From NCBI RefSeq assembly GCF_900215325.1, contig NZ_OCMS01000001.1, positions 186,001 through 250,000 of the forward strand: a stretch of DNA of 64,000 nucleotides, given 5' to 3'. Under the pieces are notes generated by a model. It was not told the DNA's origin, made no database searches, and worked only from the letters and a program-made list of their open reading frames with translations. Shown here piece by piece: positions 3,962-58,551 of this stretch; position 1 is the first letter of the stretch, and every line of letters begins with the position of its first letter. Source of the DNA: Fibrobacter sp. UWB16. Lineage in GTDB: Bacteria > Fibrobacterota > Fibrobacteria > Fibrobacterales > Fibrobacteraceae. The position numbers and the translations under genes were made by a program.

Positions 3962-5690
3962 TCCAGAAACCAGATCGCTGGAAGAACTCGCTGGAGTTCC
4001 CAATGCGGCTGAACTGGAGCAATTGGCAAATGCGTATTTTCCGGATTTGACGGATAGCGCATATGCAGCAACCCCCGCCGCTCCCGAAGCGCAGAATGCA
4101 TCTGCCGCTCAGGGCGTCAGTGCAGCTCAGGGTGCCGCAGCCATCAGCCAGACTCCAGCCTTCGACTGGGAACACCCCTTTGCGACCTATGGCGACCAGC
4201 CGACATCCTCGGCTCCGTTTGCCTATGGCGGAAGTTCTACAGACACCTGGCTCAACACGGTCGAAGCCCCTGCGGTTCCCGAATCGCAGTTTGCATCGCA
4301 GCTGAGCGATATTCCGACAGCCCCCGCACCGGCTCAGGGTTACTCCCCGAAGGTCGTGTCCAAGACGCAGGCTGCCCAGAACGCGCGCCCAATCGACGCT
4401 CCGACGTCCCTCGGTGGCGATTCCGTGAAGACGAGTTCTGCAAACAGCGGCGCAAATTCTCGCAACGATTCCATCCGCATCGGTTCCAAGACGCTTGCCC
4501 AGATCCGTTCTGACTTCCCGATTCTTTCGAAGCAGATCAACGGCCATCCGCTCGTTTGGCTCGATAACGGTGCAACGACGCAGCGCCCGCAGGTCGTCAT
4601 TGACCGCCTCAAGTACTACTACGAAAACGAAAACTCCAACGTGCACCGTGGCGCTCACACGCTCGCGGCTGCATCGACAGACGCCTACGAAAATGCACGC
4701 AACATTGTTCGTGACTTTATCGGAGCTCCGTCTTCTCAGGAAGTTGTTTTCGTACGCGGTACAACAGAAGCCATTAACTTGGTTGCAAATGCCTACGTGA
4801 AGCCGACGCTCCAGCCGGGTGACGAAATCATCGTCTCCATCTTGGAACATCACGCCAACATCGTTCCTTGGCAGCTCATTGCCGAAGAAACAGGTGCGAT
4901 TATCAAGGTGATTCCGTGCGATTCTACCGGTCAGCTCAAGCTCCACGATTACGAAGCTTTGTTCACGAAGCGTACCAAGTTCGTTTCCGTGACGCATGTT
5001 TCAAACGTGCTCGGCACTGTGACCCCGATTGAAGAACTCATTGCCATTGCTCATAGACACGGCGTGAGAATCCTCATTGACGGTGCCCAGTCCATCGCTC
5101 ACATCCCGGTGAATGTTGCAGCCCTCGACGCAGACTTCTTCGTGTTCTCTGGACACAAGGTGTTCGCTCCGACCGGCATCGGCGTTGTCTATGGCAAGAA
5201 GGAATTGCTCGAAGCGGCCCGCCCGTACCATGGCGGCGGCAACATGATTGCGGACGTAACGTTTGAACGCACAATTTACAACGGAATTCCGAACAAGTTC
5301 GAAGCTGGTACCGGAAGCATCGCCGACGCTGTTGGCCTCGGTGCAGCCCTCCAGTACCTCTCCGAAATCGGGATGCCCTGCGTATTCCGCTGGGAACATG
5401 AACTGTTGCAGTACGGCCTCAAGGAATTGAAGACTGTCAAGGGTCTCCACCTTGTGGGAACCGCACTCAACAAGGCTTCTGCGCTTGCCTTCAAGCTCGA
5501 CGGTTATTCCGACGAAGAAGTGGGCAAGAGACTCGACGCATACGGCGTTGCCGTGCGCACCGGGCATCACTGCGCTCAGCCGGTTCTCCGCCATTTCGGC
5601 TACGAAAGTACCGTGCGACCCACTCTCGCATTGTACAACTCACCGGATGACATCGACGCCCTCGTAAGAGCGTTGAAGACATTCGCGTAG
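3948..5690 (+). CDS. Encapsulin cargo: cysteine desulfurase (SufS-like) with disordered targeting N-terminus
   Basis: A PLP enzyme that would take sulfur from L-cysteine, giving alanine and a persulfide. Residues 1-175 are low in complexity (Ala, Pro, Ser, Gln), with short motifs such as AELEQLANAYFPD and FDWEHPFATYG; this matches the encapsulation-targeting extension of family 2A cargo. The SufS-like catalytic domain begins near residue 180. It has PLP Lys404 in FSGHKVFAPTG and catalytic Cys542 in RTGHHCAQP. The ATG at 3948 has GAGG 12 bases upstream; an in-frame ATG at 3927 lacks a site. With 580 residues it is some 170 longer than free SufS. Confidence 0.93.
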   Translation: MTTNNPETRSLEELAGVPNAAELEQLANAYFPDLTDSAYAATPAAPEAQNASAAQGVSAAQGAAAISQTPAFDWEHPFATYGDQPTSSAPFAYGGSSTDTWLNTVEAPAVPESQFASQLSDIPTAPAPAQGYSPKVVSKTQAAQNARPIDAPTSLGGDSVKTSSANSGANSRNDSIRIGSKTLAQIRSDFPILSKQINGHPLVWLDNGATTQRPQVVIDRLKYYYENENSNVHRGAHTLAAASTDAYENARNIVRDFIGAPSSQEVVFVRGTTEAINLVANAYVKPTLQPGDEIIVSILEHHANIVPWQLIAEETGAIIKVIPCDSTGQLKLHDYEALFTKRTKFVSVTHVSNVLGTVTPIEELIAIAHRHGVRILIDGAQSIAHIPVNVAALDADFFVFSGHKVFAPTGIGVVYGKKELLEAARPYHGGGNMIADVTFERTIYNGIPNKFEAGTGSIADAVGLGAALQYLSEIGMPCVFRWEHELLQYGLKELKTVKGLHLVGTALNKASALAFKLDGYSDEEVGKRLDAYGVAVRTGHHCAQPVLRHFGYESTVRPTLALYNSPDDIDALVRALKTFA

Positions 5691-5699
5691 ATTAGACAA

Positions 5700-5762
5700 A
5701 GACGGCCCTTCGGCAGGCTCAGGGACCTAAACAAGTTCACTGAGCTTGTCGAAGTGAACGCC
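5700..5762. repeat. Dispersed palindrome, 'CCTTCG..GGCTCAGGGACCT' type
   Basis: CTTCGGCAGGCTCAGGGACC faces GAGCTTGTCGAAG across a short spacer. It is the same element as the one inside the trpCF coding region at 11729-11790. It lies between the desulfurase and the acetyltransferase, where it might act as a weak terminator or mRNA-processing hairpin. Confidence 0.7.
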
Positions 5763-5789
5763 GTAATACTCTTTCAACAAATTTGACTT

Positions 5790-6752
5790 ATGCACGAATT
5801 AATCCAAGAATCTGAAGTTGAAAAAGCCGTACAAATTATTTTCGACGATTACAATCGCGGCAAGCATATCGACAATATCGATATTTACAATCGACCCGAC
5901 CAGGCCGAGATCCAGACGATTTTGCAAAATCTGATTCGAGTCGTTTATCCCGGACACTTCAGAGATCGTTCGCATAAGATTTACAACCCTAAAAATAGCT
6001 TTGCAGTTCTTATCGAAGATACGTTCTACCACCTCCACAAACAGGTGGCAATTGCGCTAGATTACTGCAAATTGCGCGGTTCCATGACCTCGGACGAGCG
6101 CAAAATTGAAAGCTATAGAATTTGTAAGGAATTCTTCGCCAAGATTCCGCAAATTCGCGAATTCTTGGAAACCGATTTACACGCCGCTTTTGACGGCGAC
6201 CCTGCTGCCGGTTGCCTTGACGAGATTATCCTCGCCTACCCCGGTCTCATGGCGACAACCATTTACCGCATCGCCCACGAACTTTATCTTTTACACGTTC
6301 CGGTTCTCCCGCGACTCATGACCGAATATGCCCATTCCAAAACGGGCATCGACATCCATCCGGGTGCAACAATCGGCAAATACTTCTTTATTGATCACGG
6401 CACAGGCATTGTGATTGGCGAAACCGCAGTCATCGGCAAGAACGTCAAAATTTACCAAGGCGTCACACTTGGCGCACTTTCTACTCGCGGCGGACAAAAG
6501 CTCTCCGGCAAAAAGCGTCACCCCACCATTCAAGACAACGTCACTATTTACGCGGGAGCATCCATTCTCGGCGGAGATACCATTGTTGGCGAAAACGCAA
6601 TTATCGGCGGCAACGCCTTCATCACGCGATCCATCGAGGCCAACACTCGTGTCAGCCTCAAGAATCTTGAAATGGATTACGTTTCAACCACCAATAGCAA
6701 GCACAAGACAGAAGAGCTCCAGCAAAGCGACGAGTGGTACTATATTATTTAG
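5790..6752 (+). CDS. Serine O-acetyltransferase (EpsC/CysE type)
   Basis: Makes O-acetylserine from serine and acetyl-CoA, the committed step of cysteine synthesis. The 320-residue protein has an alpha-helical N-terminal part (1-180) and a left-handed beta-helix of hexapeptide repeats (about 185-290, GIDIHPGATIG to AIIGGNAFITRS). The DHGTGIVIGE stretch carries the conserved active-site histidine region of this family. The length fits the longer EpsC-like type. It lies 99 bases behind the encapsulin cargo gene, across a palindromic repeat. Serine acetyltransferases are common neighbours of family 2A encapsulins, where they would supply the cysteine used by the cargo. No clear ribosome site precedes the ATG. 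Confidence 0.93.
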   Translation: MHELIQESEVEKAVQIIFDDYNRGKHIDNIDIYNRPDQAEIQTILQNLIRVVYPGHFRDRSHKIYNPKNSFAVLIEDTFYHLHKQVAIALDYCKLRGSMTSDERKIESYRICKEFFAKIPQIREFLETDLHAAFDGDPAAGCLDEIILAYPGLMATTIYRIAHELYLLHVPVLPRLMTEYAHSKTGIDIHPGATIGKYFFIDHGTGIVIGETAVIGKNVKIYQGVTLGALSTRGGQKLSGKKRHPTIQDNVTIYAGASILGGDTIVGENAIIGGNAFITRSIEANTRVSLKNLEMDYVSTTNSKHKTEELQQSDEWYYII

Positions 6753-6797
6753 TAGGAAGTGGTTAGTAAACAGTGGTTAGTAGGAAGTAAAAAGGAC

Positions 6798-6827
6798 AAA
6801 ACCCGCACTCGGACGAGCACGGGTTTT
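6798..6827. terminator. Bidirectional terminator
   Basis: AAAACCCG pairs with CGGGTTTT around a loop that holds an inner CTC/GAG pair. It lies between the convergent acetyltransferase and pectate lyase genes and has T-runs in both directions. Confidence 0.7.
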
Positions 6828-6847
6828 CAATTTATTTTAAGATAAGA

Positions 6848-8596
6848 TTATCGAACAGTTATGCGTCGCGTTTCATGACCGACTCGCAAGAGGTACATGC
6901 CCGCACGAGGAACGGTTATCGAGCTTTCGCTCCCCAAGGACTGAACTTTTGTAATCAGCCTGCCCTGGGCATCCAGGAGATACGCAGCCTGCGTAGCACC
7001 TTGTACGGTAAGAACTCGACCGTTGACAGAAACATTGAAATGCGGAGCAACCGTAGCGACATTCAACGAAGTCGTGCCCTGCTCCGAGCTAGAGCTTGAT
7101 TCGACTTTACTAGAGCTAGACTCTGCAACCTCTCCATTTGCACCAATAACCGTAATAGTTCCGTTCTTAGTTGCATTTGTCGTAGCCCCAGTTGTTGTCA
7201 CGGTAAAGTTGTACGCTCCCACTTCAGCATTTTGAGCGACCGTACCTGAGATGTAGAAATCACTACCCTTCATTGTTCCCACAATACCTTCGGGGAGTCC
7301 CGTAACAGTCGCACCCGTGGCGCCAGCGACAGTAAAGTAAAATTCTTCGATAGATTCACCTTGCTTGACTTGTTGCTTGGCGCTACCCGAGCCGTGCTTA
7401 GTAAGTGTCGCCATTCCAGAAACAACCTCCCCCTGCGAGGAACTAGATACAGCCTGCGAGGAGCTGGACTGTGCGACACTGCTACTGGATTTCGCAACAC
7501 TTGAACTAGACACAGCCACGCTGGAACTAGACTGTACTTCGCTCGAAGAAGATGCGGGCGTCACCGTTTGAGATTTTCCCGGATCAGGGAGCGTCGCTCC
7601 TGCGTACAACTTAATGGAATCGCGCAAAGCGTAAGCTTTTGCCTGTGTACTCACATCGGTCAGGCTCATGGAATAGCTCGGCTTGAACGCCGTACCCGTA
7701 CCGTCCTGCTTCTTCTTCACGTTCTCTTCGTAATTTTCAATCATTTGCGCCGCCGTAATGGCTCCATCGCTCGTGTACAAGTCAAGCGCCTTCTGCACGC
7801 CAATGAACACGTTCCTTTCGATGCGGATGTCCGCCTCGATAGCGGCTCGCACGCAATAGCTCGCATTCTTGCTATCGAAGAGGTTGTTCGCCACATGTAC
7901 CTTGCCAAAACGCACACGCGGCATGCGTTCGACCACGCCGTCAGCCCACCACGTATGGTGAATCGTCACATTCAGGTGTCCGCGGTCGCTCGTCTTTGTC
8001 TTGCTGTTACCAATCAGGTTGCTGAACTGATGACCACTCGATGCCGAAGTGTAGCTGAACTTGGTCCACGAAATCGTCACAAAGTCCGAGGCGTTGGTAA
8101 TATCCAAGTTGCCGTCGTGACCGTCGTAGACATCCACGTGGTCAATCCACACATTCTTCGATTCGTGATTCACCTGGAGGCAATCTTCGTCATCGTCATC
8201 GTGTGCGCCCACACCCTTGAATTTCAGGTTGCGGATGATGACGTTCTTCGAGCCGCTCAGCTTCATGGCACTGCCCGAAGTAGGCTGCGCGATAATGGCG
8301 CCCTGGTAACCGTAAATCGTCACGTTGCTACCGACTTCCACCGGACCCATGTACGTACCCGGCTTCACGTAGATAATCTTGTTGCCCGCCTTGGCGTAGC
8401 TCTTGAGGTCGTTCACGTTGTCGACCGTGACCTCGGAGTAGCCCTTGCCGCCCGTAGTGCCGCCATTCTGCGTGGCAAAACCCGCCATCGGAAAATCCGG
8501 CGAAGTCACCGCAAACGCAGGAATCGCAGCCGTTGTCACAGCCATAGCCGCAAATGTAGCTACAGCACCAATCGATTTAGAGAACAAATAATTCAT
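6848..8596 (-). CDS. Secreted pectate lyase, polysaccharide lyase family 1, with Ser-rich linkers and C-terminal sorting domain
   Basis: An exported pectate lyase of 582 residues that would cleave polygalacturonate by beta-elimination. Order: signal peptide (1-29), PL1 parallel beta-helix (about 35-330) with the family motifs WIDHVDVYDG and RMPRVRFGKVHVANN, a Ser-rich linker (about 350-390), an Ig-like segment (about 395-480), a second Ser linker, and a C-terminal module ending YLLRVGHETRRITVR that resembles type IX secretion sorting domains. Linkers of this composition are typical of Fibrobacter plant-cell-wall enzymes. It is followed on the same strand upstream by a carbohydrate-binding lipoprotein gene, but a hairpin separates them, so they are probably separate units. 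Confidence 0.92.
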   Translation of the reverse strand: MNYLFSKSIGAVATFAAMAVTTAAIPAFAVTSPDFPMAGFATQNGGTTGGKGYSEVTVDNVNDLKSYAKAGNKIIYVKPGTYMGPVEVGSNVTIYGYQGAIIAQPTSGSAMKLSGSKNVIIRNLKFKGVGAHDDDDEDCLQVNHESKNVWIDHVDVYDGHDGNLDITNASDFVTISWTKFSYTSASSGHQFSNLIGNSKTKTSDRGHLNVTIHHTWWADGVVERMPRVRFGKVHVANNLFDSKNASYCVRAAIEADIRIERNVFIGVQKALDLYTSDGAITAAQMIENYEENVKKKQDGTGTAFKPSYSMSLTDVSTQAKAYALRDSIKLYAGATLPDPGKSQTVTPASSSSEVQSSSSVAVSSSSVAKSSSSVAQSSSSQAVSSSSQGEVVSGMATLTKHGSGSAKQQVKQGESIEEFYFTVAGATGATVTGLPEGIVGTMKGSDFYISGTVAQNAEVGAYNFTVTTTGATTNATKNGTITVIGANGEVAESSSSKVESSSSSEQGTTSLNVATVAPHFNVSVNGRVLTVQGATQAAYLLDAQGRLITKVQSLGSESSITVPRAGMYLLRVGHETRRITVR

Positions 8597-8730
8597 AAAA
8601 CATCCCTTTTTTCTTTAAATTTAAGCCGCCGAACCAGAAAACGCATCAAAAAAGAGCCCCACACAACTCAAAGTGTCCTCTATAGACAACTCCGTTTTAA
8701 CCGAAAAATCAATTACGATCACCCAGCAGG

Positions 8731-8760
8731 AAAGGCTTGCCCCCTAAGGAGCAAGCCTTT
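8731..8760 (-). terminator. Terminator of the beta-helix lipoprotein gene
   Basis: AAAGGCTTGC and GCAAGCCTTT form a perfect 10-base stem 30 bases behind the stop codon at 8790. Confidence 0.75.
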
Positions 8761-8789
8761 AGTGTTTAGGAGGAAATTCAAGGGAAAGG

Positions 8790-10457
8790 CTATTTTTCGT
8801 AGTAGGTCATGCCATTCGGGAGGGTAACTTCGGTCATGCCGCTCACATCTACCTGGGACACAGAGCTGACTTCGCCACCATAAATAATCATGCTACCAGA
8901 AGAGCTAGGCTTGAAAGCGGCTTTGCTAGAACCATACGCCGTACCAGCCGTGTAGCTTGTAGCAGTGCAATAAGGATACTCTTCGGTTTGGCTTCCGAAA
9001 CCAAGCAACACACCACCATTGATGCTAAATCCATTGTCCGTATCAATAAGCCCACCAGCCGTATTCGTGGAGCAAGAGCCTGAGCCACCCCTGTTTCCGC
9101 CCTGATTTCCCGGAGCAAACATTGCGCTAGACCTTCCGCTAGAACCGATTTCAAGGAGCAAAACGCCTCCGCTCATTGTTGCCGTTCCATTGGCATCAAG
9201 CACATCAATATCGTTACCCGCCGCATAGAGGTAATGGTAACCGCCACTGATAATGATATAACCCTTGGAGCCGCTCATCATGCCAGTCGGGCCGCCGCGG
9301 CCACCCCACTGAGAACCACTCGTTGAGTTGGCATCAGCCGAGCCTCCCGCCGCATTCCAAGCATCATCGCTTGCAACCGTCGCCGTCTTTCCGCCTTCTG
9401 CCCTGATGTAGAACGCTTCAATACCTTCGACAGCCTTGGTGATGTTGATGGATCCGTCAGAAATGCGCAATGTTGAATCGGCATGGATGCCGTCATCGCC
9501 CGCAGAAATCGTCGTGCGTCCACCGTTAAAATAAATGTTCATGTTGGAATGGAGCCCATCATCGCCAGCATTGATGTTAAACTCACCGCCAGTGATGACC
9601 ACAATTCCCTTTTCTTCCGTGACTACACCTTCGTCGTCGCCCTCGTCGCTCTTGATTCCGTCGCCATTTGTTGCCGTCAGTTCAAAATAACCGCCCTCAA
9701 TATTTACAGAGCCCTTGCCCTTGATGGCGTGATTTTTGGCTTTGACTGTAATTTCGGGCAAATCACGAATGCGCAAATCGTTGCTGCAATGAATTCCGTT
9801 GTTGTAGTTTCCGGTTACGGTTAACGCGCCGCTACCCTTGATTGTCAAGTCATCCTTGGCATAGATAGTCGCATTTGTCGTGTCGCTGGAACCGTTAGAC
9901 TTTGTATAAGATTTCGTGCGGGTAGAAGCATCTTCAAGAGTATTCTTTGTCCCATCCACCAACAATAAAAATACCTTGTTCGCATTTTGAACATAAATTG
10001 GAGCGTCAGAGGCGCTTGCAAGTTGCAAACCATTCAAGTACAGATAAACATTGTCTGTACTCCCAGCGTTAACGATTATTTGGTTGTCGTTCGAACTGCC
10101 GGTAAGCTGGTAATTTCCTTGGCAGCTGATGGTAATGGTCTTTTCATTTTGAGCAATGCAACCATTGTCATTCGAGACCGAAACGGATGCGTTGGTAAAA
10201 GTAATAACCGGATCACCAGAAATTTCGGAAACCATTACAGGATCCGAAGCCACTTGTTCAATAACGACTTCTTCGGTCGTAGAGCTTTGACTAGCCGAAG
10301 ATGATTCCGGATTAGAGACCACCGTAGTTTCACCGGCAGAATCTGATTCAGCAGCATTCGGGGCAACAATACCCGTAGAATCTACGCTACTATCACCACA
10401 GGCGCAAAGCGTTAGAGCTGCGCACCAAACGATGTTTGATAATTTCAATGTTTTCAT
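8790..10457 (-). CDS. Beta-helix carbohydrate-binding lipoprotein (DUF4353/Cthe_2159-like)
   Basis: A 555-residue surface lipoprotein candidate. The signal peptide ends in a Fibrobacter-style lipobox with Cys20 in LCACGDS, followed by a Ser/Glu-rich spacer to about residue 75. Residues about 85-470 are imperfect repeats of the form 'LTIKGSGALTVTGNYNNGIHC ...', 'GDGIKSDEG', 'AGDDGLHSN', 'AGDDGIHAD', which match the carbohydrate-binding beta-helix family whose studied member, Clostridium thermocellum Cthe_2159, binds cellulose and polygalacturonate and resembles PL1/PL9 lyases. Acidic DG/DD turns suggest calcium sites. It neighbours a pectate lyase, which supports a role in binding pectin or cellulose. 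Catalysis is not claimed. Confidence 0.82.
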   Translation of the reverse strand: MKTLKLSNIVWCAALTLCACGDSSVDSTGIVAPNAAESDSAGETTVVSNPESSSASQSSTTEEVVIEQVASDPVMVSEISGDPVITFTNASVSVSNDNGCIAQNEKTITISCQGNYQLTGSSNDNQIIVNAGSTDNVYLYLNGLQLASASDAPIYVQNANKVFLLLVDGTKNTLEDASTRTKSYTKSNGSSDTTNATIYAKDDLTIKGSGALTVTGNYNNGIHCSNDLRIRDLPEITVKAKNHAIKGKGSVNIEGGYFELTATNGDGIKSDEGDDEGVVTEEKGIVVITGGEFNINAGDDGLHSNMNIYFNGGRTTISAGDDGIHADSTLRISDGSINITKAVEGIEAFYIRAEGGKTATVASDDAWNAAGGSADANSTSGSQWGGRGGPTGMMSGSKGYIIISGGYHYLYAAGNDIDVLDANGTATMSGGVLLLEIGSSGRSSAMFAPGNQGGNRGGSGSCSTNTAGGLIDTDNGFSINGGVLLGFGSQTEEYPYCTATSYTAGTAYGSSKAAFKPSSSGSMIIYGGEVSSVSQVDVSGMTEVTLPNGMTYYEK

Positions 10458-10660
10458 ATATCACCCCATTTTTTCTATAAAAGTAGCTCCGGCACAATCG
10501 TAAAAAAAGTGATACAAACATATTTTTGAAATACGCACATTTTTCTTTTGGGACGAAAAGTTCCATACGGAACAAAACACCCCAACAACAATTACTCCAA
10601 CTAAGACCAACTTTCTTTTGAACATGCCTTAAATTTTTCTACAATTGGCGTAGAGGAATT

Positions 10661-12274
10661 ATGAGCGAAGATATTTTGCAAAAAATCGTGCGGATGCGCC
10701 GCGAAGACATCGATAGACTTGGGCTGAATTTCAACATTGATATTCCCGAGGCGCGTCGCGTTGGTCATACTGAATTTTTGGGTAATGCAGGAGCCATCCT
10801 TGAGGTCAAGAGGGCTTCGCCATCCAAGGGAGACATCGCACCGGACTTGAATCCAGTGGAACTTGCCACGACTTACGCCGAAGCACACGCTCAAGCGGTC
10901 TCCGTGCTGACCGAAATGAACTTTTTCAAGGGCTCGCTCCGTGACTTGATTGCCGTAGCGGACTTGATGGAACGCCGCCGTCAGCAGGGCTTGCACACTT
11001 GCGCTGTTCTCCGCAAAGATTTCCTTTTATTCGAAGACGAAATTGACATCGCTTACCGCTGTGGCGCCGATGCCGTATTACTCATCGCCCGCATCCTCGA
11101 CGACGAACAGCTCGTTAAGATGGCACAGCGCGCGCAGAAGTTCGGCATTCAGGCATTCGTTGAAGTTCGCGAAGCTGACGATTTCCGCAAGCTTGCCGTT
11201 GTGACAGCCGCTCTCGGAGATGCAGCCGCCAAGACGATCGTCGCAGGCGTCAATTCCCGCGACCTCGCCACATTCCACACAGACCCGCTGATTCCCGCAA
11301 GCGTCCGCAGCAAACTCCCCGCCAAAGCCGTTTTTGAATCGGGCATTCTGAGCGCCGCCGATGCGACATACGCCCGCAATCTCGGATTCACAGGGATTCT
11401 CGTCGGCGAAGCCGTCGCCAAGAATCCGCCGCTCGCCAAAGACGTGGTCAGCGCATTCGAAAGCGGATGCGAAAACGCCCGCGGACAGTTCTGGAAGAAA
11501 TTCGCCGAACGCAAATTTGCCAATAACGAGACTCGCGCCGCCTCATCACAAGATGCGCGCCCACAAGATGCGCGCCGCCCGCTCGTGAAAATCTGCGGCA
11601 TCACCCGCGAAGAAGACGGTCTCCTCGCCGCCGAACTCGGCGCCGACATGCTCGGTTTCGTGTTCAGCACCACCAAGAGACTCACCACCGAAGAATTCGT
11701 GCGAAACTTCGCCGCAAAAATCAGCATGTGTCATCCTGAGCCCTTCGACAAGCTCAGGGACCTAAATAAGGTTGGTGAGCCTGTCGAACCACTACTCGTT
11801 GGCGTGATAACCGACCCGAATTCCGTCGAAGGCAAAACCGCCATCAAGCTCGCCCAAGAAGGCGTGCTCGATGCCGTACAATTCCACGGCGTTGATCCGC
11901 ACAATTCCGACGCACTCGCGGAATCTTGCAGCGCAGCCCTCCCCTACTACTGCGCAGCCCGCGTAGGCGCCCCCGAAGATTTCGATTACGTCGCAAGTCT
12001 CCGCAAGAACGGCGAGCCCCGCATTTTGCTGGACGCCAAGGTCGAAGGCATCCCCGGCGGCTCCGGCAAGACCATCCCCGAATCGCTCCTCCGTGAAAAA
12101 GCAAACGGAGCCCCGCTCTGGCTCGCCGGCGGCATCAATCCTGAAAATGTCGCCACCCTCTGCGAAAAGTTCCACCCCGAACTCATCGACGTATCTAGCG
12201 GCATCGAAGACGCCCCCGGCATCAAGAATCACGACAAGATGAAAGCGCTGTTTGCGGAATTCGCCGCAAAATAA
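10661..12274 (+). CDS. trpCF: Bifunctional indole-3-glycerol phosphate synthase / phosphoribosylanthranilate isomerase
   Basis: Carries out two adjacent steps of tryptophan synthesis. TrpC occupies residues 1-255 (EVKRASPSKGDI, VLRKDFLLFEDEIDIAYRCGADAVLLIA, GVNSRDL) and TrpF residues about 305-537 (LVKICGITREEDG, VQFHGVD, DVSSGIEDAPGIKNHDKM). The domains are joined by a charged Ala/Arg linker with a repeated QDARPQDAR. Within TrpF, about 21 residues (CHPEPFDKLRDLNKVGEPVEP) are encoded by a palindromic repeat inserted in frame just before the strand LLVGVITDP. GAGG precedes the ATG. The gene is alone; trpB and trpA lie 5 kb downstream, and trpE and trpD are not in the window. Confidence 0.95.
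   Translation: MSEDILQKIVRMRREDIDRLGLNFNIDIPEARRVGHTEFLGNAGAILEVKRASPSKGDIAPDLNPVELATTYAEAHAQAVSVLTEMNFFKGSLRDLIAVADLMERRRQQGLHTCAVLRKDFLLFEDEIDIAYRCGADAVLLIARILDDEQLVKMAQRAQKFGIQAFVEVREADDFRKLAVVTAALGDAAAKTIVAGVNSRDLATFHTDPLIPASVRSKLPAKAVFESGILSAADATYARNLGFTGILVGEAVAKNPPLAKDVVSAFESGCENARGQFWKKFAERKFANNETRAASSQDARPQDARRPLVKICGITREEDGLLAAELGADMLGFVFSTTKRLTTEEFVRNFAAKISMCHPEPFDKLRDLNKVGEPVEPLLVGVITDPNSVEGKTAIKLAQEGVLDAVQFHGVDPHNSDALAESCSAALPYYCAARVGAPEDFDYVASLRKNGEPRILLDAKVEGIPGGSGKTIPESLLREKANGAPLWLAGGINPENVATLCEKFHPELIDVSSGIEDAPGIKNHDKMKALFAEFAAK
11729..11790. repeat. Palindromic repeat inside the trpF coding region
   Basis: TTCGACAAGCTCAGGGACC at 11744-11762 faces GGTTGGTGAGCCTGTCGAA at 11770-11788 as an imperfect inverted repeat. 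A related intergenic copy is at 5700-5762. It is translated in frame with no stop. Confidence 0.85.
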
Positions 12275-12293
12275 CTTTCAAGAAATCGCAATT

Positions 12294-12333
12294 ACAAGTA
12301 AAGCCTATCCTACAGGATAGGCTTTTTACTTGT
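12294..12333. terminator. Terminator after trpCF
   Basis: ACAAGTAAAGCCTATCC pairs with GGATAGGC...ACTTGT; the core stem GCCTATCC/GGATAGGC is followed by TTTTT. It lies between convergent trpCF and the Rpn-type gene. Confidence 0.8.
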
Positions 12334-12396
12334 TTCTATTTCTATTTCAAAATCTTTCATCCATGAATTTGACATAGTTCTAGGACTAAAATGAGC

Positions 12397-13443
12397 CTAC
12401 CTGGAATTATTCGAAAGGCCTAAAGAGGCTCGGATTTTAGCCATTGAAGCCCCCTTCTTTTGCATTCGTTCAACAAGGTTTAATGCCTTTTCAACAGCTT
12501 TATCCTCGATTTGCTTGACGAAATCAGGGTTATCCTCTACAAATGCCAACTGTTGTGCATATCTGTCCCATTTCAAGTGCATAATATACCTGTACCTTTT
12601 GAGTTCTTTTTTATTAAATCTAGCTAGTTCGGCAAACGGAAGCAAGCCCTCGAACTTTTCCGTTTTCAGAGCAGGAGGAAGCTCCTTCAAGCGGTCCAAA
12701 TAGCGAAAAATGAACAGCCACTTGGCGACCTCCGAATCACTTTTGCGAATCATCCTCGTAACCTTCGGAAGCTCGATAATCGTGAAATTGGCACTGTCAA
12801 TTAGCCGTTCGGCGGTTACATAATCGAGAATTCCGGCACGGTGAAGTGGCCGATTATCATCGAACACCCGAAATCGGGCAAAAGAAATCACATAGACAGG
12901 CTTGACATCGTAATCCCAATCGGGACCGGGTTCACCCTGTTGCACAATCATCTGACTTGAATAAAACACCAAACGCTTCAAAAAATTCGTTTCCCGCTGA
13001 ATCTGCACCTCTATTTCAATAAGATTATCCCGCTCATCGCGACAATGCAAATCAAGGATTGAAGATTTGGAAACCTTGCTACCAGAATCATTGAGTTCCG
13101 GCTGGAGCGACGCCACATCCATGATTTTTTGCGGGATCTGCCCTTCGAGCATATCATTCAGCAAGTTCAGCAAATTGCGTTTTCCGCGATGCGTATCCGG
13201 AGAAAACGTTTTCTTAAAAGTCTTGTCGTACAAGAGACTTGCGTAAGGTCCAAATTCACCTTCCTTGACAAAATACCGCGAGAGGTCGCATTCTTCGGCA
13301 TTATACGGGGCTACATTTTCATGAAGTTTATTCAACTTCGGAGAATCAGCAATCCAAACTAGCGGTTTATCTCCATGGTAAAAACGCCCGAGTCCAAGCT
13401 TTTCAAGAATCGGGTCTGCACATTTTTTATTTTGAACGTCCAT
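12397..13443 (-). CDS. Rpn-family recombination-promoting nuclease / PD-(D/E)XK transposase-like protein
   Basis: A 348-residue protein of the PD-(D/E)XK nuclease family annotated as 'putative transposase' (PF12784). The N-terminal half has the family opening (YASLLYDKTFKKTF, LLNLLNDML) and nuclease core LDLHCRDERDNLIEIEVQIQ, giving an Asp and a Glu-x-Gln catalytic set. The C-terminus is helical with MQKKGASMAKIRASLGLS, a typical short end repeat. Rpn proteins cut DNA and stimulate RecA-independent recombination in E. coli; many genomes have dozens of copies. No terminal repeats were seen around it, so it is probably not an autonomous element. It is a single gene facing trpCF. Confidence 0.88.
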   Translation of the reverse strand: MDVQNKKCADPILEKLGLGRFYHGDKPLVWIADSPKLNKLHENVAPYNAEECDLSRYFVKEGEFGPYASLLYDKTFKKTFSPDTHRGKRNLLNLLNDMLEGQIPQKIMDVASLQPELNDSGSKVSKSSILDLHCRDERDNLIEIEVQIQRETNFLKRLVFYSSQMIVQQGEPGPDWDYDVKPVYVISFARFRVFDDNRPLHRAGILDYVTAERLIDSANFTIIELPKVTRMIRKSDSEVAKWLFIFRYLDRLKELPPALKTEKFEGLLPFAELARFNKKELKRYRYIMHLKWDRYAQQLAFVEDNPDFVKQIEDKAVEKALNLVERMQKKGASMAKIRASLGLSNNSR

Positions 13444-13652: not shown

Positions 13653-13781
13653 CGTAAAGGTGAAATCGGTAATCCACTCAGACCGCTTGCGGGAGGGGTT
13701 CCCGTAAAACGGAACGGATTCACTGGTTTCATCAAGTGTTTGATAAAATGGCTTCCGGAATGTGCCGGAAGCCTATTTTTT
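13653..13781 (+). ncRNA. Candidate structured RNA 1 (leader or small RNA), paralogue of 16856-16978
   Basis: From a near-consensus promoter to a terminator (GGCTTCCGG 13750-13758, CCGGAAGCC 13765-13773, then T-run). It shares an ordered set of blocks with the RNA before trpB: GTAATCC, ACCG, TTG.GG, GGGG, a small hairpin of unlike sequence (CCGT/ACGG here), CGG.TT, then TTTCATCAAGTGTTTG and the terminator. Conserved loops with changed stems are what a functional RNA shows. It ends about 90 bases before a pyrophosphatase gene, so it may be a cis-regulatory attenuator or a free small RNA. I do not recognise a known riboswitch class. Confidence 0.5.
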
Positions 13782-15027: not shown

Positions 15028-15067
15028 AACCACCCCTTGCCTCAAAAATTCAACACTATAGCATAAG

Positions 15068-15100
15068 GGCTTCCGGGATTTGCCGGAAGCCTAATTTTTT
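15068..15100. terminator. Terminator after the pyrophosphatase gene
   Basis: GGCTTCCGG and CCGGAAGCC with a six-base loop, then TAATTTTTT. It uses the same stem sequence as the terminators of both structured RNAs. Confidence 0.85.
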
Positions 15101-16855: not shown

Positions 16856-16978
16856 ATGAACGCAGTAATCCGTTTCAACCGTTGGTGGTGGGGCTCTACG
16901 AAATAGAGTCCGGTTTGCTGATTTCATCAAGTGTTTGTAAAAGGCTTTCGGGACTCTCCGGAAGCCGATTTTTTTTGG
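16856..16978 (+). ncRNA. Candidate structured RNA 2, upstream of trpB
   Basis: Paralogue of 13653-13781 with the same block order: GTAATCC, AACCG, GGTGGGG, hairpin CTCTA/TAGAG, CCGGTTT, TTTCATCAAGTGTTTG, terminator GGCTTTCGG/CCGGAAGCC with eight T. A -10-like TATAGT lies at 16844-16849; the -35 is poor. It ends about 100 bases before trpB, so attenuation of trpBA is possible. No run of Trp codons was found, and its paralogue precedes an unrelated gene, which argues against a classical trp attenuator. Confidence 0.5.
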
Positions 16979-44225: not shown

Positions 44226-45572
44226 TTAGCGGTGTTCGTTCGTCGTGGGCTCCATGCCTCGGAAGAACGCGAGCCCATCAAAAACATCCTTAAGCGCCTG
44301 CACAGTCGCCCCAATCATATAAAGACTACCTGTAATGAGCACCGGCGAACCGTCCGTGACGCTCGCACAAACTTCATTGAGATACTCAAGGGAAAACTCG
44401 CCCGCACTCGCGACATGCAGTCCAAGCTTTTCAAGCTCGCCCTGCAAATCAATGAGTTCGCGGAATCGCGGATACGGCGTACGCGTGATATGCCAAGCGC
44501 TCACGTGCGGCGCCATGAGCTTGAGCATCTCGCCCACATCCTTGTCGCGGAGCGCTCCAAACACGCAATGGAACTTCTGATTCGGGTAATACTTATCAAG
44601 CGTCTCGACCAGACGGCGGACTGCATGGGAATTGTGCGCACCATCTAGAATAAACTTTGTCACGCCGTTTGCATCGATAAGCTTTTGCATACGGCCCGCC
44701 CAGGAGCGCGTCGCAAGAGTCTTAAGTGCAAGCGCATCATCGTACACACTCGGATTTGTCATTCCCGCGAAAGCGGGAATCTCCTTATCACTGTTCGATA
44801 TACGTTGTAAAAATAATTCCGCAGCCTTAAGCGAAAGGCTTGCGTTTTCAATGTAATGTTGTCCTAAATTCGGGAGTTCAATATCGTTACGGATTTCGGG
44901 AACAACGCACAAGCATCCGTGCGAAGCCGCAAAAATTTTGGCTTCAGCAATCAAAGCATCATTCAAGCCACCCAAGACAAAAGTCTTGCTATGACCATTC
45001 GAAAGAATACTTTGTGCGGAACCCGCCACACCCATTTTTTCCTTGAGGATTGCAGATTCCGTGCTACCGAGAACTTCCGTGTGCTCCAGCCCGATGCTCG
45101 TAAGCACAATCAATTCGCCATCGGCAACGGCAGTGCTGTCCAAGCGACCGCCCATGCCCGCTTCCAAGACCGCAACATCGATGTTCTGTTCTGCGTAATA
45201 GAGGAATGCGACAATCGTCAGCACTTCAAAAAACGTCGGTTCCACTTGCGTTTCTTCGGCAGCGGCCTTGACCTGCATAATCAAACGGTCAAGAGATTCA
45301 TCGTCAATCGGCAAATCGTTCACACGGATGCGTTCACGCATGCTCACCAAGTGCGGGCTCGTATAAAGCCCCGTCTTGAGGCCGTGCGCCTGCAAAACAC
45401 CCGACAAGTAATAGCTCGTCGAGCCCTTGCCGTTCGTGCCAACAACATGAATCGTCTTAAACTTTTTTTGAGGATTTCCGAGAGCTTCGCAAAGTTTACG
45501 GGTAGAAGCAAGACCCGGCATCATCCCGAATATGAGGCGGGAATTCAAATATTCCAATCCGTTCTGAATCAT
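44226..45572 (-). CDS. folC: Bifunctional folylpolyglutamate/dihydrofolate synthase
   Basis: Adds glutamate to folates. The 448-residue Mur-ligase-like enzyme has ATP loop VVGTNGKGSTSYYL, SPHLVSMRERI, LEAGMGGRLDSTA and LDGAHNSHA. At about residues 268-282 the segment DKEIPAFAGMTN is encoded by a 27-base palindrome (44758-44784) of the dispersed ATTCCCG repeat family, inserted in frame in the region between the ATPase domain and the C-terminal domain. The gene is alone on its strand. Confidence 0.95.
   Translation of the reverse strand: MIQNGLEYLNSRLIFGMMPGLASTRKLCEALGNPQKKFKTIHVVGTNGKGSTSYYLSGVLQAHGLKTGLYTSPHLVSMRERIRVNDLPIDDESLDRLIMQVKAAAEETQVEPTFFEVLTIVAFLYYAEQNIDVAVLEAGMGGRLDSTAVADGELIVLTSIGLEHTEVLGSTESAILKEKMGVAGSAQSILSNGHSKTFVLGGLNDALIAEAKIFAASHGCLCVVPEIRNDIELPNLGQHYIENASLSLKAAELFLQRISNSDKEIPAFAGMTNPSVYDDALALKTLATRSWAGRMQKLIDANGVTKFILDGAHNSHAVRRLVETLDKYYPNQKFHCVFGALRDKDVGEMLKLMAPHVSAWHITRTPYPRFRELIDLQGELEKLGLHVASAGEFSLEYLNEVCASVTDGSPVLITGSLYMIGATVQALKDVFDGLAFFRGMEPTTNEHR
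44758..44784. repeat. Palindromic repeat inside folC
   Basis: ATTCCCGC and GCGGGAAT around GAAA, with the GTC and CTCC flanks typical of intergenic copies. It is read through in frame as EIPAFAGMT. Confidence 0.85.
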
Positions 45573-51817: not shown

Positions 51818-51982
51818 TTTTTTACAACACCTTTTTTATCTTCATCAAGAACTTAAAGAGTAGCAAACTGCCTCTTGTACTCATCCACATAATACACCGC
51901 CTTTAATTTTTTTGAATTACAAATGTAGATACTAAAATTGACGGCATTGCAACCCATAGGTTGCAAAATTACGTAAAATAAA
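51818..51982 (-). repeat. Island repeat copy R1 (165 bp) with 22-codon micro-ORF
   Basis: Nearly identical to 53347-53509. Read on the minus strand: hairpin TTGCAACC/GGTTGCAA (51947-51966), TTTTAGTATCTACATTTGTAATTC, AAAGGCGG, then ATG at 51890 of a 22-codon frame ending at 51822. The TACATTTG block matches the Bacteroidetes -7 form TAnnTTTG. The flanks 51727-51817 and 51983-52016 show nothing else. Confidence 0.8.
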
Positions 51983-52016
51983 GCTTACAAGAATATCGAG
52001 ATAAAGAATTAGCGTT

Positions 52017-52193
52017 TCAGTCAGTGTACCCTGCCAAAGATACATCTTTGATGAAATCTTTGTCAAGTAGTCTCTTTAGTTTCTCAGCAGGAATTTCCTT
52101 TTCTTCCAAAACAGCTCGGAAAATTCGAAGCATCTCAGCCCGGTTTGTTTTTTCGCGCTTTTCAGGCTCCGTCCAGTTGTAAGCTTCCCCATA
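52017..52193 (-). pseudogene. 3' remnant of an unidentified gene
   Basis: A 58-codon open frame with no start, beginning after an in-frame stop and ending TGA at 52017: YGEAYNWTEPEKREKTNRAE, then MLRIFRAVLEEKEIPAEKL and DKDFIKDVSLAGYTD. The charged, helical composition looks like real protein. No family recognised. It follows the HigBA pair on the same strand. Confidence 0.45.
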
Positions 52194-52206
52194 TTAGTAA
52201 ATGACT

Positions 52207-52230
52207 TATAGTTCGTCAAAACGAACTATA
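52207..52230. promoter_or_regulatory. Perfect inverted repeat after the antitoxin gene
   Basis: TATAGTTCG and CGAACTATA around TCAAAA, 15 bases behind the antitoxin stop. No T-run follows on the minus strand, so it may be a processing hairpin or an operator rather than a terminator. Confidence 0.45.
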
Positions 52231-52244
52231 CATTATTGGAACCA

Positions 52245-52805
52245 TTAAGCTAAAACTAAATCTTTTTCCTTACGGTTGATTGATATATTGTCAAGAACGA
52301 TTTTTGGTTCATCTGCCGGATGAATCTTTTCCAATTTTGCAGAAGAACTTTCTATAAGCATCGATGCTAAATTCAGCATATTATGCGCAGCCTCAGTTTC
52401 GAAACTCGCAATTCCTTCTAAAATGCAATCATCGTCAACAGCATATTTTTGAAGTTCTTTTACCAAGTTGACAAGTTGACTATATGTTCCTTTTATTTTT
52501 TGAGCGATATTTTGAGGTTTAGAAATTGTAATTGTAGTCTCGTAACCTAGAGTTGCGAGATAAGAACACATATCGTCAACTTTTATCTGATCGTTGCTAG
52601 CGCTTTCAAGTTTAGAAATGAACGATTGCGATGTATTCATTTTTTTTGCCATTTCAGACTGCGATAAATCAGCCTTGGCTCGTAAAATGGTCAGATTTTG
52701 GCTTATACTATGATTTTTTATATGCTCGGTCGTTTCTTTTGCGATCTTTTTTTCAACCCCCATTTCATTCATTAAATCGGATATGGTTGTAAGATTTTTT
52801 TCCAT
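52245..52805 (-). CDS. XRE-family antitoxin, HigA-like
   Basis: A 186-residue protein with an XRE helix-turn-helix near residues 35-90 (LRAKADLSQSEMAKKMNTSQSFISKLES). The C-terminal 90 residues are an unassigned helical extension, which makes it longer than the usual 90-110-residue HigA. AGGAG precedes the ATG. It lies 33 bases behind a RelE-like toxin gene, giving the toxin-first order of higBA. It probably represses the operon through the inverted sites at 53242-53308. Confidence 0.85.
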   Translation of the reverse strand: MEKNLTTISDLMNEMGVEKKIAKETTEHIKNHSISQNLTILRAKADLSQSEMAKKMNTSQSFISKLESASNDQIKVDDMCSYLATLGYETTITISKPQNIAQKIKGTYSQLVNLVKELQKYAVDDDCILEGIASFETEAAHNMLNLASMLIESSSAKLEKIHPADEPKIVLDNISINRKEKDLVLA

Positions 52806-52838
52806 GTTGATCTCCTGAGATTGGGTTGAATAAGTAAA

Positions 52839-53204
52839 CTAAAGAGTTTGAATGAATTGATGTCCTGTTTTGATATCGCTTTGCTGCGATTGTTTGTCCC
52901 CAATCGACGTTATGAAAATAACATGATTAAGTACATTGGGATAGATATACAAGCGGAGCTGAAAACCACCTTTGGGTGGTCTTTGGTCTATTGCAAGCAA
53001 TCCATTTTTCTCGTTATGCACAAAAGGAAGCACTCTTTTCGCCTGTTCTAAAGAGACACCTTCATCTAGAGTCTTTTTATAGGTGTCTAGATTTTTCAAT
53101 GTGTTTTCAAACTCATGCGGGTATTTTCTACTAATACGATCCGCTGTGGATTTTGAAAAGCATGGGGCGAAACAGTATTCCCAAACATGTTCTGCTCGCA
53201 GCAT
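52839..53204 (-). CDS. RelE/HigB-like toxin
   Basis: About 121 residues from MLRAEHVWEYCFAP. The start at 53204 is chosen because AGAGGA lies seven bases before it; upstream in-frame codons lack a site. The size, the C-terminal strands (LLAIDQRPPKGGFQLRLYIYPN...HVIFITSIGDKQ) and the following XRE gene fit the RelE/HigB superfamily of ribosome-dependent mRNA interferases. Catalytic residues are not clear enough to name. Confidence 0.72.
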   Translation of the reverse strand: MLRAEHVWEYCFAPCFSKSTADRISRKYPHEFENTLKNLDTYKKTLDEGVSLEQAKRVLPFVHNEKNGLLAIDQRPPKGGFQLRLYIYPNVLNHVIFITSIGDKQSQQSDIKTGHQFIQTL

Positions 53205-53241
53205 AAAGATTCCTCTTAATTCATTTTCCCTCTTGTATTTT

Positions 53242-53308
53242 ATTCCGTTTTGGAATAAAAAATACAAAAATTAAAAATAAAAGCCAATATAAAATTCCAA
53301 AACAGAAT
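53242..53308. promoter_or_regulatory. Paired inverted operator sites before the toxin gene
   Basis: ATTCCGTTTTGGAAT (53242-53256) and its inverted near-copy ATTCCAAAACAGAAT (53294-53308) flank a minus-strand promoter-like TTGGCT - 17 bases - TATTTT. This is the layout of toxin-antitoxin autoregulation. Confidence 0.6.
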
Positions 53309-53346
53309 ATTTTTTATATAAAAAACGCAACATTAAGTTTTCTTAT

Positions 53347-53509
53347 TTTTTTACAACACCTTTTTTATCTTCATAAAGAACTTAAAAAGTAGCAAACTGC
53401 CTCTTGTACTCATCCACATAATACACCGCCTTTATTTTTTGAATTACAAAGGTAGATACTAAAATCGAGGACATTGCAACCCATAGGTTGCAAAATTTCG
53501 TAAAATAAG
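53347..53509 (-). repeat. Island repeat copy R2 (163 bp) with 22-codon micro-ORF
   Basis: Matches R1 over its whole length. The micro-ORF (53419 to 53351) differs from R1 by one synonymous change and one Leu/Phe change. A 2-base difference lies just upstream of the micro-ORF, so only that frame is preserved from the ribosome site onward. It lies 55 bases behind the stop of the GNAT gene. Confidence 0.8.
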
Positions 53510-53564
53510 ATTTATAATTCTTGCAACTTTGATTGAGACGTTTTCTTCAATGTCTGACAATATT

Positions 53565-54152
53565 TCAAATCGTCTTCAACAATTGCAAAAGTTCTTTTTG
53601 CGTCGATTTTGTCTTCCTTGTTCCAAACTCGACAAAATTGTTCTGCGTACAATAAAAATCTAGAAGTTTTTTCTTGTTTTCACACTCCAGAACGCAAAGA
53701 ACTCCACCCACGCCATGCTGGAGGTGTAAAATTTGCTCCATGGCCAAGAACAACAAATCGTTTCCTGTAATTGAGTCGTTAAGCCCTTGCTGAAAATTTT
53801 TTCCAAGCTGGGCTATAAGGTACGCAGGAATATTATACTCACCATCGTCCAAAGAGCTTATTCTTGAAAGTTTCCGTTGAACAGTCCGTGACACATTCTG
53901 AGCCTTTACGGAAATAGTCTTTATTGCCAATGAGAAATATCCCAAAAACGCACCATTCTTTTGCGAAAAGACCAGATAGCTCACAGCCTGATGCTTTTTA
54001 GCGAATTCGACTGCCGATTTTTTCAAAAAGCCCTCAACATCCTTATTCAAAGGACACTCGTAGAGGGTACAGAGATCCGACAAGAGCTCTTCTATTGGAG
54101 CCCCGCAGAGATACTCCATGATATTTACAACAAAATAGGATTTAGAAGCCAT
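53565..54152 (-). CDS. GNAT-type toxin candidate
   Basis: A 195-residue protein of GNAT shape: central AVSYLVFSQKNGAFLGYFSLAIK, a helix with QLGKNFQQGLNDSITGNDLLFLAMEQI (CoA-site region), and YCTQNNFVEFGTRK at the end, as in TacT/AtaT-type toxins (a short NGF/LGF-like segment before the end). It overlaps the upstream 61-codon gene by 11 bases. The ribosome site is weak, consistent with coupling. Toxin function is inferred from gene arrangement and fold. Confidence 0.65.
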   Translation of the reverse strand: MASKSYFVVNIMEYLCGAPIEELLSDLCTLYECPLNKDVEGFLKKSAVEFAKKHQAVSYLVFSQKNGAFLGYFSLAIKTISVKAQNVSRTVQRKLSRISSLDDGEYNIPAYLIAQLGKNFQQGLNDSITGNDLLFLAMEQILHLQHGVGGVLCVLECENKKKLLDFYCTQNNFVEFGTRKTKSTQKELLQLLKTI

Positions 54153-54327
54153 GTTTCTTTCTAAGGAGAGTAAGTTTTTTCAAACTGTAAACTCCGCTTA
54201 GAACATCAGCCTTAACACGACTGACAGAAACAGGGGCCTTCAAAGAGCGATCCACAGCCTTAACGAAGGACTCCAATTGTTTGGTCCCAACCACGTTAAA
54301 GTTCTTTTTTATGCTCGATGTAGCCAT
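54142..54327 (-). CDS. Small putative antitoxin of the GNAT pair
   Basis: A 61-residue basic protein (MATSSIKKNFNVVGTKQLES...LTLLRKKHGF). It is directly upstream of and overlapping a GNAT gene. GAAGGT precedes the ATG. No DNA-binding fold is obvious. Antitoxin is a guess from context. Confidence 0.6.
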   Translation of the reverse strand: MATSSIKKNFNVVGTKQLESFVKAVDRSLKAPVSVSRVKADVLSGVYSLKKLTLLRKKHGF

Positions 54328-54416
54328 GATTTACCTTCTAGCGAAATATACATTAATCAAAACAACAATACAAGCCCGCCAAAAATAGCTATGATGAAAT
54401 CCTAGCCTTTTCGAGC

Positions 54417-54488
54417 TTTTGAATTACAAATGTAGATACTAAAATCAACGACCTTGCAACCCTTCGATTGCAAGGTTTGTAAAATAAA
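54417..54488 (-). repeat. Island repeat copy R3 (short, 72 bp)
   Basis: Carries only the hairpin and TTTTAGTATCTACATTTG part of R1/R2. The stem here is ACCTTGCAA/TTGCAAGGT with a different loop, so the stem changes while pairing is kept. It lies just behind the terminator of the wecB fragment and about 90 bases before the GNAT pair. Confidence 0.75.
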
Positions 54489-54492
54489 ATTC

Positions 54493-54525
54493 AAAAAAAA
54501 GAAATGTCCCGCTTCCACGGGACAT
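54493..54525 (-). terminator. Terminator of the wecB fragment
   Basis: ATGTCCCG/CGGGACAT with minus-strand T-run TTTCTTTTTTTT. Homologous to the terminator at 58552-58581. Confidence 0.85.
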
Positions 54526-54554
54526 CCTTGCATTTACGCTTTTCAAAAACGATT

Positions 54555-54995
54555 CTACCCCTTCCTCCACACCATCTTGTTGACGATGCCGGTGTAGCTC
54601 TGGATAATCTTCACGACCTTGGTCGAGACGTTTTCTTCGATGTAGTCGGGCACGGGGATGACGTAGTCGCCGTTGGTGTTCATCGTGACGGCTGTGTCGA
54701 CGGCCTGCAAGAGGGACTTTTCGTCGATGCCAGCGATGAAGAAGCAGGCCTTGTCAAGCGCTTCGGGGCGTTCTGTGCTGGTGCGGATGCAGATTGCCGG
54801 GAACGGGTGGCCGACGCTTGTGAAGAAGGAGCTTTCTTCGGGGAGCGTGCCGCTGTCGCTCACGACGGCGAATGCGTTCATCTGCAAGCAGTTGTAATCG
54901 TGGAATCCGAGCGGTTCGTGCTGAATCACGCGCTTATCGAGCTTGAAGCCCGAGGCGGCGAGGCGGTTACGGCTGCGCGGGTGGCAGCTGTTTGT
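54555..54995 (-). pseudogene. Duplicated 3' fragment of wecB (UDP-GlcNAc 2-epimerase)
   Basis: About 146 C-terminal codons, nearly identical to the end of the wecB-like gene at 58616, from CHPRSRNRLAASGFKLDKR to NKMVWRK. Homology also covers the 3' flank and terminator (54502-54992 against about 58558-59052). Upstream of 54995 the sequence breaks off into unrelated DNA. There is no catalytic N-terminus, so it cannot be a working epimerase. Confidence 0.88.
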
Positions 54996-55051
54996 GTCAC
55001 GAGATCCACCCATACCACCAGTAATCAATTTTTTACCCTAAGCAAAGGTTA

Positions 55052-56539: not shown

Positions 56540-56661
56540 TAGTCAGCTCCCGATTGATTAACAACATTGTTAGAATATATATCATTTACTGAACTTAAGA
56601 AGACACAACAAGCCACATCTGTCGCCCCAAACAGTATTATCTTCTTGCCAAAGACGGAGAT

Positions 56662-57126
56662 TTACAGCGAATATGATGCGGGCGTATTCGCAACAATCAG
56701 TCTTGCGTTCAGGGAACTGATTTTTTTCATGCCCTTTTGAATCAACGGCGATGATGCAGGAAAATGATTTTTGCCAACAACAAACGCCAGCTTCCGTTGA
56801 GAACACTCAGGATTCAATTTTGGATTTTTGAGAGACGCTTCCAGTTGTTCTATGGCATGTTCAATATCGCCACCTTTCAATTCAACAAAGCAAAACAAGG
56901 GGGCTGATTTTTCAACCAACAACTTGTCACACCGGGCAGAACGAGTATTTGAAAGAATCACGCCCCCATCGACATCAACCTTCAAACAAGACTTTTTTGA
57001 CTTATTGACAAATGTAATCTTGCTTTTCTGTTCTTCAAACTTGATATTAGAATCCTTGGTTGAGCACCAAGATCCAGAAGGCAAAGAATTAGCCCATACA
57101 TTCAAAGATTCATTCGCTTTATTCAT
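56662..57126 (-). CDS. Small PD-(D/E)XK nuclease-like protein paired with an AAA ATPase
   Basis: A 154-residue protein. Asp67 in RCDKLL and Glu82-Leu-Lys84 in CFVELKGGDIEHAIEQL give the D...E-x-K arrangement of PD-(D/E)XK nucleases, followed by a helix with Gln as in Holliday-junction-like and restriction-type members. It overlaps the ATPase gene by four bases (ATGA), so the two are translated together. It would be the effector nuclease of a two-gene system. The assignment rests on motif and context. Confidence 0.65.
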   Translation of the reverse strand: MNKANESLNVWANSLPSGSWCSTKDSNIKFEEQKSKITFVNKSKKSCLKVDVDGGVILSNTRSARCDKLLVEKSAPLFCFVELKGGDIEHAIEQLEASLKNPKLNPECSQRKLAFVVGKNHFPASSPLIQKGMKKISSLNARLIVANTPASYSL

Positions 57127-58295: not shown

Positions 58296-58335
58296 GGTTG
58301 AATCCTGATGTTACCCAATAAAAAATAATAAATCA

Positions 58336-58356
58336 TTTTGACACAAAGTGTCAAAA
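58336..58356. promoter_or_regulatory. Perfect inverted repeat before the ATPase-nuclease operon
   Basis: TTTTGACAC and GTGTCAAAA around AAA. On the minus strand it contains TTGACA, with TATTAT 18 bases further, so an operator overlapping the operon promoter is likely. Confidence 0.5.
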
Positions 58357-58401
58357 TACGATTTTTCATACATATTAGCGATATTCCAGCCATCATATTG
58401 A

Positions 58402-58537
58402 ACTATAAAGAATTTCTTTATAGTTGCCACACTTGTATAGGATTCTTTACCAACAATAGCTCCGTACGGAGTGGTTGTTTCCATTTTGGAAACAACCACT
58501 TTTTCATCAAGCCTGATTTTTGTCAGGCTTTTCTTTT
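58402..58537 (+). ncRNA. Candidate small RNA with three hairpins and a terminator
   Basis: Hairpin AACTATAAAG/CTTTATAGTT (58402-58426), palindrome CTCCGTACGGAG (58460-58471), hairpin GTGGTTGTTTCC/GGAAACAACCAC (58471-58499), then TTTCATCAAG-like TTTTCATCAAG and terminator AAGCCTGA/TCAGGCTT with T-run (58509-58537). The TTTCATCAAG block before a terminator is shared with the RNAs at 13653 and 16856. It lies in a 320-base gap without a gene. Confidence 0.4.
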
Positions 58538-58551
58538 ATCCCCCTCTATAC

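Follow-up and report, generated by a model that had tools for sequence, protein, structure and literature searches.

How a core biosynthetic enzyme comes to carry a palindromic repeat within its reading frame, and whether such a repeat serves any purpose there, are questions raised by the trpCF gene of Fibrobacter sp. UWB16. The gene occupies positions 10661-12274 (+) of the 64,000-nucleotide stretch analysed here (termed the window; positions 186,001 to 250,000 of contig NZ_OCMS01000001.1), and its source genome (G000) comprises 3.56 Mb in 9 contigs. Open reading frame, Pfam and structural match identify a fusion protein of 537 amino acids, which joins indole-glycerol-phosphate synthase (TrpC; PF00218, E 2e-47) to phosphoribosylanthranilate isomerase (TrpF; PF00697, E 2e-25) and contains the sole TrpF found in the genome. 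The predicted structure (mean pLDDT 82, pTM 0.83) has a well predicted barrel, and the whole chain matches two TrpCF structures, 1pii and 7ety, at Z 29.7 in both cases; the high rmsd probably reflects how the two domains are positioned to each other. The columns of C312 and D458, the cysteine and aspartate that are catalytic in TrpF, are invariant across the trpCF genes of the genus. The best match to the TrpF profile starts only at residue 367, within the region of the insert considered here.

The original prediction derived about 21 residues of the TrpF domain from a dispersed palindromic element at 11729-11790. The origin and the start of this segment stand; its end falls one base further on, so that the in-frame insert CHPEPFDKLRDLNKVGEPVEP (residues 357-377) spans 11729-11791 (+). 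In the structural model it lies between a helix (344-356) and a strand (378-383) with pLDDT below 50 at residues 359-374, as would be expected of a disordered loop leading from helix 2 to strand 3. In TIM barrels the helix-to-strand loops face away from the active site, which would explain why an insert is tolerated at this position. At the DNA level, the insert opens with TGTCATCCTGAGC and continues into a long imperfect palindrome, here called type A, the core of which (TTCGACAAGCTCAGGGACCT-AAATA-AGGTTGGTGAGCCTGTCGAA, 11744-11788) is defined by its RNA fold and by other copies in the genome. The stem consists of 7+5+5 pairs with mismatches between them, and the predicted RNA fold has an energy of -22.8 kcal/mol (z -2.6 versus shuffles).

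A second copy of type A in the window is intergenic (5705-5754); it lies after the stop codon (5690) of a class-V aminotransferase gene and ahead of the ATG at 5790 that comes next. The two copies are 84% identical over 49 nt (5705-5753) as a direct repeat (D6) and 78% identical as an inverted repeat (I1), and the intergenic copy folds more strongly (z -5.2) than the one in trpF. A search of the whole genome with a 101-nt query yielded a best further copy of 91% identity (E 5e-14) and about ten copies at E < 1e-4. Repeat frequencies were assessed in a sample of 862 kb of the same genome (24%) plus 200 kb from each of two relatives. In the 862 kb, the 49-mer gave six BLAST matches at E < 0.05, and five shuffled 49-mers gave none at the same threshold. 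An Rfam search of positions 5400-12600 returned no match.

The segment is an insert, since TrpF proteins of outgroup genera within the Fibrobacteraceae lack it and have a short, repeat-free loop instead (e.g., VRKILNSMELYPLLVGV or VRKILNSMELYPLLVGVITN). A minimal loop, KIGSNRPILVG, also occurs in some Fibrobacter species (L057, L060), and alignments to the solved TrpF proteins 1dl3 and 1nsj/1lbm break at the insert site. The proposal that normal TrpF proteins have no such segment is thereby borne out, and the comparison with relatives suggested at the time reveals the insert to be missing from the family's other genera and also from certain Fibrobacter species. Conversely, the segment might have been ancestral to TrpF, with the intergenic repeats derived from it; its presence in distant TrpF proteins that lack the repeat had been named as the sign of such an origin. 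The outgroup and solved proteins are without the segment, many intergenic copies reside in species whose TrpF does not contain it, and nothing was found in favour of this history, which the outgroup comparison rules out for practical purposes.

Beyond the original prediction, other repeat families fill the same loop in other species. When about 60 different trpCF genes of Fibrobacter, drawn from two collections, were aligned, no fewer than five types of element emerged in the loop between helix 2 and strand 3, where they occur alone or in series. Next to type A, the palindrome of the window, these are type B1 (DNA TGTCATCCTGAGCAAGCGCAGCGCGTCGAAGGATC, peptide CHPEQAQRVEGSP), type B2 (DNA TGTCATCCTGAGCGCAGTGCAAACGGAGTCGAAGGATC, peptide CHPERSANGVEGSP), type C in antisense reading (DNA AGATTGCTTCGCTCCACTCGCAATGAC, peptide KERLLRSTRND), type D, which is the dRS3/CGTC-1 palindrome and is found in L043/L044 (DNA GTCATTCCCGCGCAGGCGGGAATC, peptide LSFPRRRESP), and type E, a GGAGCCGACGG variant. 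Type C is followed by A in L034, by B1 in L041, L062 and L083, and by E in L037 and L091, and the loop of L033 contains one half of type A. A loop variant, FVTSFSTKL, was considered as a further CGTC family, an idea that found no support: it gave three scattered partial matches and no full element.

Two more sites of TrpCF harbour such repeats. The TrpC-TrpF linker (approximately 11532-11579, +) has a pLDDT below 50 at residues 295-304 and is palindrome-free in the window protein; in L041, L042, L053 and other relatives it contains type C in sense reading (CHCEERSDEAI), and in L038 type A in another reading frame (ALRQAQGPCKVGEPAEP). The third variable site is the loop after TrpF strand 4 (VQFHG..; approximately 11888-11947, +), where relatives carry type A (L039, L051, L071), type C (L229 and L236), a D-like element (L234) or a long D-like array (L235). 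In the latter gene (G025:C34:152975-154888) the loop is much enlarged and includes a tandem array of PGMTAEGK, which by its look is palindrome-derived. Across the species of Fibrobacter, three flexible sites of one enzyme have taken up palindromes of several unrelated families.

The concentration of repeats at these sites was also apparent when families were not picked by eye. Residues were marked if they lay under 14-mers that occur at least twice in the sampled Fibrobacter DNA outside the trpCF gene of the own genome. This procedure marked 17.4% of the residues in the loop from helix 2 to strand 3 (25/60 genes), 5.4% in the linker and 5.7% in the strand-4 loop. The corresponding values are 1.2% for TrpC, 3.9% for the part of TrpF ahead of the loop (strand 1 to helix 2), 0.5% from strand 3 to 4, 0.6% from strand 5 to the end, and 0% for the loop of the outgroup. 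On the gene tree, which was built without the three variable sites, loop types turn over rapidly: 24 changes are needed (A 4, B1 6, B2 5, C 11), a count in which gains and losses are indistinguishable and which is inflated if recombination breaks the single tree.

Several other genes in the 862 kb sample contain in-frame repeats, namely those for RNase HII (rnhB), NAD+-dependent DNA ligase (ligA), MurB, a folylpolyglutamate-synthase-like, an FAD-dependent and a Ser-rich secreted protein, as well as two proteins without a Pfam match; chance-like matches of the core motif in open reading frames (e.g., L120:4942, L125, L152 and window positions 29973 and 34058) were left uncounted. The folC-like gene lies within the window (44226-45572, -) and carries in frame a type D palindrome, AGATTCCCGCTTTCGCGGGAATGACA (44757-44785, -), which encodes KEIPAFAGMT. 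This insert is present in 2/30 folC genes of the genus and missing from 28/30.

The loop of RNase HII contains different repeats in different species. In rnhB (L130:6881-7786, -) and its relatives L190-L219, this second hot loop precedes the strand LIAVDGN; palindromic repeats (VILNEAQRNEGS, CHPGLVPGSP, VGEPAEPL) are found there, as are apparent short tandem repeats (LTTNHQPLTT, SLVSRLSS). In ligA (L127:15273-17633), a stretch of B- and D-type repeats is placed directly ahead of the conserved KIDG motif, and a secreted protein (L142:7468-9492), which has a sorting domain at its C-terminus, contains two repeat-encoded peptides, NVILSSSEGSSSS, in its Ser-rich linker. Repetitive DNA of other kinds also occurs in the window. 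Three hairpins of the form GGCTTCCGG..CCGGAAGCC resemble one another and lead into T runs (13747-13781, 15065-15099, 16940-16974); they are possibly related terminators. A+T-rich blocks of repeats lie within 51818-58893 (94 nt at 97%, 83 nt at 73-89%), close to a 300-nt repeat of 95% identity located at 54533 and 58594.

How did the filled loops spread through the genus? The type A inserts of L031, L034, L064 and L071 differ at 0-1 of 62 nt in genes that are otherwise 10-25% apart (p 1e-3 to 1e-7, with sites treated as independent). At one mismatch or less, the type A 49-mer is confined to trpF within the genus, being exact in G000, G050, G006 and G077 and changed once in G046; the nearest copy elsewhere has three mismatches. 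Likewise, B1 shows 0/35 differences in genes that are 17-27% apart, and its CAG variant is found in 5/5 trpF copies versus 7/37 copies elsewhere (p 9e-4). Finally, the sister genes L058 and L082 differ by replacement of the whole loop and not by a clean insertion. The occurrence of identical inserts in genes about 23% diverged, with copies elsewhere being different, strongly indicates that short-tract homologous recombination carried loops filled with types A and B1 from species to species. Such loop exchange predicts that the trpF copies are closest to one another, which is not expected of separate insertions from a heterogeneous pool. Identical inserts thus probably moved from one species to another as alleles of the loop and were not each inserted afresh, a point on which the original prediction was silent.

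Exchange would not be needed if trpF contained a preferred target into which an active repeat had transposed independently for each insert. The presence of at least five element types and of two-element series in a single loop, along with the dispersal of repeats across all sampled genomes, fits this scenario. Yet, we consider it unlikely, given that the A and B1 copies in trpF are identical to one another and mostly unlike the copies elsewhere, that the sister genes swap their entire loop, and that no RAYT transposase was found in the own genome.

The main caveat on exchange between species is that many of the relatives are metagenome-assembled genomes (MAGs), such that identical repeats could in part stem from assembly chimeras. 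The key type A carriers L064 and L071 belong to this group, with an estimated contamination of about 8% and 5%, respectively (apparently from genomes G006 and G077). As a general account of identical inserts in diverged genes, misassembly at repeats nevertheless has a very small probability, since the exact insert is confined to trpF loci and there is no other repeat to pull reads in; moreover, the reading frames remain open, and type A also occurs in G000, G046 and G050, each of which consists of few contigs.

Palindromic repeats within genes are already known from Rickettsia, and in-frame copies are established there (PMC10969869) and in several other bacteria. The Rickettsia palindromic elements (RPEs), RPE-4 and RPE-6 among them, are inserted in frame in many unrelated housekeeping genes, and protein structure is predicted to accommodate them (PMC10969869, PMC3733652). 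The original prediction likened the trpF insert to these elements, and as behaviour the likeness fits: a dispersed palindrome sits in frame within a conserved gene that stays open, is missing from homologues, and has counterparts in a number of other, unrelated genes of this genome. RPE-6 has been assigned to CGTC-1, which is equated with dRS3 (PMC3733652), and type D, as present in folC and in the L043/L044 loop, is of this CGTC-1 kind. The differences are that Fibrobacterota constitute another phylum of gut bacteria that are not intracellular, that element A of the window is a different palindrome, and that in Fibrobacter one loop is filled by several families genus-wide with apparent exchange between species.

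The CGTC superfamily, which includes the Neisseria dRS3 elements, is defined by a C/TGTC tag, an 8-9 bp stem starting with AT and a 4-5 nt loop, with most tails being CCA; these repeats have no dedicated transposase, and intragenic copies are known, with recB of two Xanthomonas species containing different REPs at about the same site (PMC3733652). Type D matches this definition in tag, stem and loop (TGTC-ATTCCCGC-4 nt-GCGGGAAT, in the folC insert and L043/L044), having an AT-starting 8-bp stem and a 4-nt loop; its unpaired tail is CTCC, and CGTC tails are mostly, not all, CCA (PMC3733652). In contrast, element A has no 8-9 bp stem and 4-5 nt loop after a tag, and only its opening TGTCATCCTGAGC resembles a CGTC head. 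Its long interrupted stem does not conform to the CGTC definition, and hence the window insert appears RPE-like by analogy of its working and is assigned to no named family. With the CGTC repeats, the Fibrobacter elements share intragenic copies and the lack of a dedicated transposase; they differ in that, across dozens of species, a single enzyme has been recolonised at three sites.

REP/REPIN elements of the GTAG type, mobilised by RAYT, are similar to the Fibrobacter repeats in that the latter are short, dispersed and mostly intergenic palindromes. However, the Fibrobacter repeats have no GTAG tag, and a search of the own genome for the Y1/RAYT transposase (PF01797) gave no match, while 5/14 control genomes were positive. 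By their description, the Wolbachia palindromic elements (WPE; Ogata et al. 2005, via PMC3733652) likewise appear to be protein-coding palindromic repeats. Fibrobacter is not mentioned in the paper on CGTC REPs (Di Nocera et al. 2013, PMC3733652), and literature searches on Fibrobacter palindromic repeats, repeat sequences, and TrpF with palindromes retrieved nothing relevant. New in this genus is that several repeat families have recolonised the same loops, together with the sign of probable loop exchange between species.

Is the palindrome retained for a function? It might act as a hairpin in the trp mRNA or as a DNA site (e.g., for gyrase), or the loop might tune protein stability or partner binding. 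Type A has hardly changed across 62 nt among diverged genes and folds better than shuffles (z -2.6), which speaks for such a role. On the other hand, the loop is empty, half-filled (L033) or occupied by unrelated repeats in other species, B1 folds no better than shuffles, type A is translated in different frames where it occurs elsewhere in TrpCF, and Rfam offered no match, all of which renders functional retention improbable.

The preferred reading, to which we assign a probability of roughly 80%, is that a palindromic repeat landed in a flexible TrpF loop, was tolerated there, and that filled loops were then reshuffled between species. A short mobile or once-mobile repeat would have entered the surface loop in frame and would have been kept because the loop tolerates additional hydrophilic residues. 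Flexible loops may in this way put up with selfish or neutral repeats, to be followed by reshuffling, and selection would chiefly remove insertions that are out of frame or in the core. The encoded peptides would be neutral, lacking a specific function, and a mild benefit of the insert peptide is possible.

These findings imply a warning: peptides such as CHCEERSDEAI or FPRRRESP in protein databases can be translated repeats. Whether the insertion of repeats provides raw material for protein evolution has been an open question since the Rickettsia reports. Dozens of Fibrobacter species now present a natural series of TrpF alleles, which are empty, half-filled, filled or doubly filled and involve several repeat families; TrpF is easily assayed, and hence these alleles make it testable whether an insert is neutral, does harm or is of use, and how the repeats move. 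Tentatively, and at somewhat less than even odds, the variable loops of Fibrobacter may be viewed as exchangeable cassettes, which capture intergenic palindromes and are traded between species by recombination. If so, “selfish” repeats would continually feed new loop sequence into core enzymes.
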